Assembly (NCBI GenBank): GCA_016188005.1
Contig: JACPIQ010000134.1
Coordinates: forward strand, 1 to 40,658
Length of the DNA: 40,658 bases
Direction: 5' to 3'
DNA from: Candidatus Rokuibacteriota bacterium
GTDB lineage: Bacteria; Methylomirabilota; Methylomirabilia; Rokubacteriales; CSP1-6
Position numbers and translations under genes: made by a program. Within the stretch, counting starts at the first letter, position 1. Each line of letters starts with the position of its first letter. This document shows positions 36,577 through 38,083 of this stretch, in pieces. The notes below the pieces were generated by a model. The model saw nothing but the letters and a program-made list of their open reading frames with translations, did not search any database and was not told the DNA's origin.

Positions 36577-36698
36577 GGCATCTCCTCCTCCGGCCATCCA
36601 TGGCCGCCTTGGGAATGGCGCCTCCCTCGGAAAGGCTACGATCGCGCGTTCGCCCGCGGCGGTACGAAATCCGCACCAGTCTGCGCCGCCCGCCGGGG

Positions 36699-36704
36699 TA
36701 TCGT
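36699..36704 (+). promoter_or_regulatory. Weak -10 box of the regulator gene, leaderless arrangement
   Basis: TATCGT followed by six bases and the ATG at 36711, with no ribosome site; same spacing as three other genes of the window. Confidence 0.3.
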
Positions 36705-36710
36705 TGGTGT

Positions 36711-37460
36711 ATGAAGGGCTACGGTCAATTCTGCTCCGTGGCACGGGCGCTCGATCTGCTCGGTCAACGGTGGACGTTGCTCATCGTACGTGAGCTCCTG
36801 TGCGGAAGCCGTCGCTTCGGGGAGGTGCAGCGCGGCATTCCGCGCATCTCGCGGACGATGCTCTCGGCGCGTCTCCGTGAGCTGCTCGACGCTGGGGTGA
36901 TCGAGCGCCCGGACGGCAGCCGCGGGCCCGAGCACCGAATGACGGCAGCCGGTATGGAGCTCGCGGCCGTCGTCCGTGAGCTGGGCACGTGGGGCCAGCG
37001 GTGGCTGCCCCGCGAGCTCCACACGAGCGAGCTGGACGTGGACGCACTCGTCTGGGACATCCATCGCCGCGTACGCAGGGAGACGCTTCCGGAGAAGCCG
37101 CTCGTCGTCCGGATCGAGCTGTCGGACGTGCGCGGCGCCGCGAGTCGTCGCTATCTGCTGCTCCGGCGCAGCGAGGTGTCGCTCTGCACCGCCAACCCTG
37201 GATTTCCGGAGGAGCTCTGCCTCCGCGTGGACCGCCGAACCCTGATCGGATGGTGGCGCGGTGATCTGACGCTCCCGCAGGCGCGCGCGGCAGGGTTGAT
37301 CCTCGAGGGTCCACGCGAATGGGTGCGCGCCTTTCCGAGGTGGTTCGAGCGCTACCTGTTCGCCGCGGTTGCCCCGTTCTCCAAGCCGAGCGCTGCCCGG
37401 AAGCACGCGCGGATGGCGCGGCCGGGCGAGCAGGTACGCCGAAGACAGGAGGCATCGTGA
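36711..37460 (+). CDS. HxlR-type winged-helix regulator with C-terminal domain
   Basis: A 249-aa transcription factor. Residues 1-95 are an HxlR winged helix: YGQFCSVARALDLLGQRWTLLIVRELL and FGEVQRGIPRISRTMLSARLRELLDAGVIER. Cys8 in the N-terminal helix is at the place where redox-sensing HxlR members have their sensor cysteine. Residues 120-240 form a second domain (WDIHRRVRRETLP onward) resembling the SCP2-like extension of longer members. Its stop overlaps the start of the selenoprotein-like FrnE gene as GTGA, so it probably controls that gene in a redox-linked way. Confidence 0.88.
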   Translation: MKGYGQFCSVARALDLLGQRWTLLIVRELLCGSRRFGEVQRGIPRISRTMLSARLRELLDAGVIERPDGSRGPEHRMTAAGMELAAVVRELGTWGQRWLPRELHTSELDVDALVWDIHRRVRRETLPEKPLVVRIELSDVRGAASRRYLLLRRSEVSLCTANPGFPEELCLRVDRRTLIGWWRGDLTLPQARAAGLILEGPREWVRAFPRWFERYLFAAVAPFSKPSAARKHARMARPGEQVRRRQEAS

Positions 37461-38083
37461 CTCAGCCAGTGACGATGAGGATCTTCTCCGACTACGTCTG
37501 ACCCTGGTGCTACCTCAGTACCGTGCGTATTGAGCGGCTCAAGGCAGAGCACAACGTGAAGGTCGAGTGGGTGCATTTCCCGCTGCACCCGGACACCCCG
37601 GCGGAGGGCCGCGCGCTGGCCGATCTGTTCGCGGGGCGCCACCTGGACCGGAAAGCCATGCACGCACAGATGAAGGCCCGCATGGACGCCGAAGGTCTCC
37701 CGTACGGCGAGCGCACCATGACGTACAACAGCCGCCTGGCCCAGGAGCTGGGCAAGTGGGCGGACACGCAGCCGGGCGGCGAGGCCATCCACGACGCGCT
37801 GTTCCGCGCCTACTTCGTGGCCGCGCGCGACATCTCCCAACCCGCGGTGCTCCTGGACATCGTGCAGCACGTGGGCCTGTCCACCGAGCGCGCGCGCGAG
37901 GTGCTGGAGAAGCGCACGTTCAAGGACGCCGTCGACGCCGACTGGGAGCTCTCGCGCCAGTACGGGATCACGGGCGTGCCGACGTTCGTCGCCGGGCGCT
38001 CCGGCGTCGTGGGCGCGCAGCCCTACGAGGCGCTGGAGCAGCTCGTGCGCAAGGCCGCGAGGGAGGACGACGCCGGAGAGTAG
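37457..38083 (+). CDS. DsbA/FrnE-family oxidoreductase, probable selenoprotein (Sec15)
   Basis: The gene starts at GTG 37457, four bases after GGAGG, as MTQPVTMRIFSDYV; codon 15 is TGA (37499-37501), followed in the same frame by PWCYLSTVRIERL and a complete FrnE-like domain to residue 208. In this family the site is CPWC, so UGA stands exactly where the first catalytic Cys belongs. A hairpin fitting the bacterial SECIS rules follows at 37514-37534. The conserved cis-Pro is in GITGVPTFVAG near residue 178. It should be a cytoplasmic thiol/selenol oxidoreductase. A plain stop would leave a 14-aa peptide and a headless domain, so read-through as selenocysteine is much more likely. Standard annotation would start it late (37523) or miss it. 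The SelA/SelB/SelC machinery is not in the window. Confidence 0.88.
37514..37534 (+). promoter_or_regulatory. SECIS-like hairpin for Sec insertion
   Basis: CTCAGTAC and GTATTGAG form an 8-bp stem (one G-T pair, no mismatch) with the 5-nt loop CGTGC. The loop begins 20 nt after the UGA and has G as its second base followed by U. Known bacterial SECIS elements lie inside the gene just after UGA, with the loop 16-37 nt away and a G in the first two loop bases; all are met. Confidence 0.82.

Follow-up and report, generated by a model that had tools for sequence, protein, structure and literature searches.

A probable FrnE/DsbA-like selenoprotein with selenocysteine at its active site in a Rokubacteriales genome

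A frame with one UGA at an active-site codon

We analysed a 40,658-nucleotide stretch of DNA (the window) from Candidatus Rokuibacteriota bacterium, contig JACPIQ010000134.1 of assembly GCA_016188005.1, around a frame that an earlier note, made from the letters alone, had read as a probable selenoprotein gene. The features of the locus are as follows.

36600–37460, + strand: HxlR-family transcription regulator (PF01638, E 4.9e-23); its end forms a GTGA overlap with the start of the next gene
37447–37452, + strand: AGGAGG ribosome-binding site, 4 nt ahead of the GTG start (direct reading)
37457–38083, + strand: gene from a GTG start to a TAG stop at 38081–38083, encoding a probable selenoprotein of 208 aa, an FrnE/DsbA-like thiol-disulfide oxidoreductase
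37499–37501, + strand: UGA, the probable selenocysteine codon for residue 15, which opens the U-P-W-C motif and aligns with the Cys of FrnE CPWC
37508–37510, + strand: TGC, putative resolving Cys18 of the UxxC motif, invariant in 36/36 aligned homologues
37514–37534, + strand: putative bacterial SECIS hairpin, arms 37514–37521 and 37527–37534, apical loop CGTGC at 37522–37526
37973–37981, + strand: G173-V174-P175, the expected cis-proline loop facing the active site in thioredoxin folds (from the protein alignment; the cis geometry is that of the family)

The frame from GTG 37457 contains a single in-frame TGA, at 37499–37501 (codon 15 counted from that GTG), and this TGA falls at the catalytic CxxC, as the earlier note had described. 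With the TGA translated as a residue, the frame encodes a protein of 208 amino acids, VTQPVTMRIFSDYV-U-PWCYLSTVRIERLK..., in which U15-P-W-C18 forms a UxxC motif and Cys18 is the sole cysteine. The good ribosome-binding site claimed for this start was found, as was the overlap with the upstream ORF, whose TGA stop (37458–37460) shares the sequence GTGA with GTG 37457. A plain ORF list puts the start of the gene at GTG 37523, which is 66 nt late and leaves 186 aa; this is the error that had been predicted for ordinary gene finding. In the protein alignment, the residues ahead of the UGA are kept as protein, F10 and D12 being invariant and Y13 and V14 conserved at >90%, and farther downstream T172, V174 and P175 are invariant and G173 nearly so among 36 homologues. 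No signal peptide was seen in the protein by inspection. We also listed other in-frame TGAs near Cys across the window, and none was convincing besides that at 37499–37501.

Family assignment and predicted fold

We compared the encoded protein with known families and structures. It matches PF01323 with an E value of 2.1e-34 (119.4 bits against a gathering score of 25.6), and its best phmmer match is FrnE of Deinococcus radiodurans (E 1.5e-21, ∼31% identity), with the UGA aligned to the first Cys of CPWC. Structure prediction gave a confident model (pLDDT 93, pTM 0.88). Foldseek returned FrnE and SCO1869 as the top six matches, and the best PDB match of the predicted fold was FrnE 5coh, with a TM score of 0.86. 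The FrnE/DsbA-like assignment made in the earlier note is thus borne out by domain, sequence and predicted fold.

D. radiodurans FrnE (DR_0659; PDB 5cnw, 5coh) shares with the window protein the fold, the position of the active site, the absence of a signal peptide and the P-W-C that follows the nucleophile. It differs in having Cys where the window protein would have Sec, and in carrying a C-terminal CxxxxC that the window protein lacks. This motif, which has been proposed to recharge D. radiodurans FrnE, is found in many but not all FrnE proteins; because the FrnE proteins of D. maricopensis and S. roseofulvus lack it too, it is no strict requirement for the FrnE subfamily, cd03024 (PMC8945050). 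SCO1869 of Streptomyces coelicolor (PDB 3gl5) has the same FrnE/DsbA fold (TM 0.83) but is, as deposited, no selenoprotein.

The UGA and its hairpin are kept in homologues

We scanned one genome per GTDB species for homologues, which gave 198 relatives, and used the best 80. At the column of the UGA, 66 of these 80 have TGA and 14 have a Cys codon (TGC or TGT), a ratio that is no census since the selection favours query-like sequences. Alignment with homologues, a check that the earlier note had proposed, thus gave either Cys or UGA at this position. That note had also named CPWC in all close relatives as a finding that would refute its reading; the three closest homologues, with identities of 94, 89 and 88%, have TGA in every case. 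The TGA homologues span Rokubacteria, alpha- and betaproteobacteria, as well as MAGs that carry the labels Acidobacteria and Deltaproteobacteria. In 40 taxonomic relatives of the genome that holds the window, TGA was present in every match that covers the site, and it stood at the active-site position in 20/20 of the matches that were read out.

An 8-bp hairpin with a CGTGC loop had been proposed at the proper distance from the UGA. The hairpin is present at that distance, CTCAGTAC-CGTGC-GTATTGAG at 37514–37534, with eight pairs, one of them G-U. Published limits for bacterial SECIS elements are a loop of 3–9 nt, a stem of 4–16 bp, G in loop position 1 or 2, a UGA-to-loop distance of 16–37 nt and an MFE <= -7.5 (PMC13188914). 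Here the hairpin falls within these limits: the loop is 5 nt with G second, the stem 8 bp, the UGA spacing 20 nt and the energy of the isolated 21-nt hairpin -7.5. Two qualifications apply. Of 48 distinct sequences, 26 lack the outermost pair (columns 16/36), which leaves a conserved helix of 7 bp. In addition, the energy is unremarkable by itself: the 46-nt fold has -14.6 kcal/mol, with a z score of -0.99 and 23 of 200 shuffles as good, which is not significant.

The hairpin is nonetheless far above chance, because it is kept in the 66 Sec-form homologues with compensatory changes and frozen synonymous codons. Four of the eight pairs have changed on both sides while 93% of cells remain paired (48 distinct sequences), a result as high in 0/500 shuffles; when the partner was slid by 1–3 columns, pairing was lost and these controls scored far lower. 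Compensatory changes were clearest in the homologues L066 (C-G to U-A and A-U to G-C), in L072 (A-U to U-A) and in L061, L069 and L077 (U-A to C-G). Codons 20–25, CTC AGT ACC GTG CGT ATT, are fixed in 97–98% of sequences with the respective residue, whereas in the remainder of these genes only 6% of Ser codons are AGT, 6% of Arg codons are CGT and 16% of Ile codons are ATT. RNAalifold added a possible lower stem. A SECIS covariance model run over the whole genome gave convincing matches to the 37457–38083 gene and one paralogue, on contig C68, only, so it is too sequence-bound for counting the selenoproteome; it also gave 17–26 bits on Cys homologues and is no clean discriminator of Sec and Cys forms, because it captures shared coding sequence.

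Selenocysteine machinery and further in-frame UGAs in the genome

The assembly comprises 5.4 Mb in 140 contigs and is 98% complete with 4.7% contamination. The earlier note had named a genome without Sec machinery as another finding that would refute its reading; selC, selA and selB lie in that order on contig C4, with selA at 577 bits and selB at 364 bits against a cut-off of 242, and selD lies on contig C86. The genome also has three further DsbA-family genes in which an in-frame TGA takes the place of the first Cys of the active site. These loci are listed below.

C4:43285–43378: tRNA-Sec (selC), 69.3 bits, anticodon UCA (TCA in DNA)
C86:102037–102972, minus strand: selD (L101), 348 bits
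C59, minus strand: DsbA-family gene (L098), UPYCYTAAVRLRRL
C68: DsbA-family gene (L099), UPWCYPAAVRLRRL
C99, minus strand: DsbA-family gene (L100), UPYCKRAQ, lipoprotein-like N-terminus

The C99 gene resembles NF041057 (Rcas_1661 seleno-lipoprotein), below the cut-off (124 vs 190 bits). Across genomes, SelB was detected above its curated cut-off in 33/36 genomes with the Sec form vs 4/13 with the Cys form (Fisher p 6e-5, uncorrected for kinship). The three Sec-form genomes without SelB over the cut-off are all draft MAGs.

Separately, SelD (L101) is itself a probable selenoprotein, in which the UGA of ACAGU-ASKM is followed by a strong hairpin (z -3.56). The C68-type paralogue, UPWC[YF]PAAVRLRRL, was found again, with TGA, in most of the relatives' genomes that were read out (L126–L142) and has its own conserved nucleotides after the UGA (CCGGCGGC...GCCTCCGG), which look like a second SECIS type.

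Proposed function and alternative readings

Taken together, the TGA in 66 of the best 80 of 198 relatives, the conservation of the hairpin and the sel genes support the selenoprotein reading of the earlier note, and interpretation of TGA 37499–37501 as selenocysteine at the active site of a thiol-disulfide enzyme is very well supported by these comparisons. We consider it highly probable that the gene encodes a cytoplasmic DsbA/FrnE selenoprotein with SECIS/SelB-directed Sec15 and Cys18 as the resolving residue, most likely acting in disulfide reduction or isomerisation. In such a mechanism, the SECIS hairpin just downstream of the UGA would recruit SelB carrying Sec-tRNA(Sec), anticodon UCA, and SelB would deliver selenocysteine at codon 15. 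The protein is predicted to have a thioredoxin fold into which a helical domain is inserted, with the U-P-W-C active site where the first helix begins. Sec15, as a selenolate at neutral pH, would be the attacking nucleophile and form a mixed selenide-sulfide with a substrate disulfide, which Cys18 would resolve; a separate reductant would then recharge the enzyme, the catalytic direction, substrate and reductant all being presumed.

FrnE of D. radiodurans acts in vitro both as a disulfide isomerase and as a reductase, and a cytoplasmic location is predicted for it (PMC8945050). Given this activity, the fold match to FrnE and the single cysteine, Cys18, the likeliest course is that Sec15 attacks, Cys18 resolves and a partner reduces, with the catalytic direction taken from FrnE at 31% identity. 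The likeliest role would accordingly be reduction or isomerisation of cytoplasmic disulfides, since a signal peptide and any Cys besides Cys18 are absent from the protein.

The alternative that survives best concerns the activity. The protein could be a selenoprotein whose activity is that of an oxidase, peroxidase or conjugating enzyme (GST kappa/HCCA isomerase-like) rather than of a disulfide reductase or isomerase. Many bacterial selenoproteins are peroxidases, and GST kappa and HCCA isomerase have the same fold, at a TM score of about 0.7. The UxxC pair is intact, however, and FrnE is the best match by both sequence and fold; GST kappa and HCCA isomerase are not known to use a CxxC pair. 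We regard this alternative as unlikely, though it keeps an appreciable share of the probability.

The remaining alternatives deny the selenocysteine itself. Were the UGA a true stop, with the protein made from GTG 37523 as mechanical ORF calling has it, the product would be truncated and lack its first strand and active site. We judge this very improbable: the residues before the UGA are conserved, a good ribosome site stands ahead of 37457, and the active site would have been lost while the remaining protein stayed conserved. On another reading the true codon is Cys and the TGA stems from faulty sequencing or assembly, or marks a pseudogene. One base change would give TGC or TGT, and the assembly is a fragmented draft; yet the same TGA occurs in 66 separately assembled homologues among the best 80 of 198, with frozen hairpin codons and compensatory changes, which leaves almost no room for an error. 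Equally negligible is the reading of UGA as another amino acid, by a code change or another suppressor tRNA: several genes of the genome do have an in-frame TGA, but only at the Cys/Sec position, UGA stops normally elsewhere (for example at the HxlR ORF end, 37458–37460, and at the end of the C59 paralogue), selA, selB, selC and selD are present, and the conserved hairpin would be without a role.

With the selenoprotein reading retained, we place the gene as a solid new example and not a new kind, DsbA-like UxxC selenoproteins having been on record by 2008 or earlier. "DsbA 1" (PF01323, UxxC) is in the selenoproteome list of the Global Ocean Sampling (PMC2398784), and later reviews name it "DsbA-like protein form 1" (PMC9312934, PMC13188914), an example being NIP15863.1. 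This form shares with the window protein the PF01323 domain and the replacement of the leading Cys of CxxC by Sec; it is common in marine samples, and the same holds for many homologues of the window protein. No separating difference was seen, and the subfamily identity is proposed from the match to the domain and motif description. In a literature search, we found no paper linking FrnE by name to bacterial selenoproteins. A Methylomirabilota MAG with 63 predicted selenoproteins has been described (PMC13188914), and the present gene is one more piece in the picture of Methylomirabilota as rich in selenoproteins. It is also a clean case for annotation correction, as ordinary gene calling cuts off 22 N-terminal residues here, the active site among them, and probably does so in dozens of relatives.

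Sec and Cys forms in the family

On a tree of 81 proteins, effectively unrooted so that an ancestral Sec or Cys state is not readable from it, the Sec/Cys label needs three changes. The main split separates a Cys clade (mostly CPWCYLGDNRVK) from the rest, and two lone Cys sequences, L045 and L088, stand among Sec sequences. The clade of Sec forms that contains L045 is well supported, and L088 lies on a long branch with weak support; SelB over the cut-off was absent from both genomes. In L088, a Caenispirillum MAG, the Cys form is accompanied by a SECIS-like sequence, CTCAATACCGGGCGCATCGAG (L088:1003–1048), that is recognisable but decayed (46 bits vs 70 with the SECIS covariance model), as expected after Sec has been replaced by Cys. 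L045 and L088 are thus probably Sec-to-Cys reversions, that in L088 being recent.

A broader proposal, which we put forward tentatively and hold somewhat short of an even chance, is that of a cytoplasmic FrnE clade with Sec as the rule (67/81) and a SECIS nearly fixed across Rokubacteria, proteobacteria and other MAGs, from which L045 and L088 would have reverted to Cys later, in genomes with no detectable SelB. The sampled DsbA/FrnE paralogues of this lineage would also be selenoproteins, suggesting that selenium-based disulfide chemistry may be central to it. With its Sec and Cys forms, and with a SECIS that is frozen in the former and decayed in L088, the family offers a natural experiment on Sec loss.

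Neighbouring genes

The GTGA overlap itself stands; the operon that it may hint at is the one weak part of the earlier reading. A search of up to 3 kb on the flanks of all 80 homologous loci gave no match to the HxlR gene, and an MFS neighbour recurs in two close relatives only, so we rejected a conserved operon and, with no conserved neighbour, propose no partner. The overlap is therefore local and says little on function. The HxlR regulator at 36600–37460 has an N-terminal Cys, in FCSVARAL, and could be redox-sensing.
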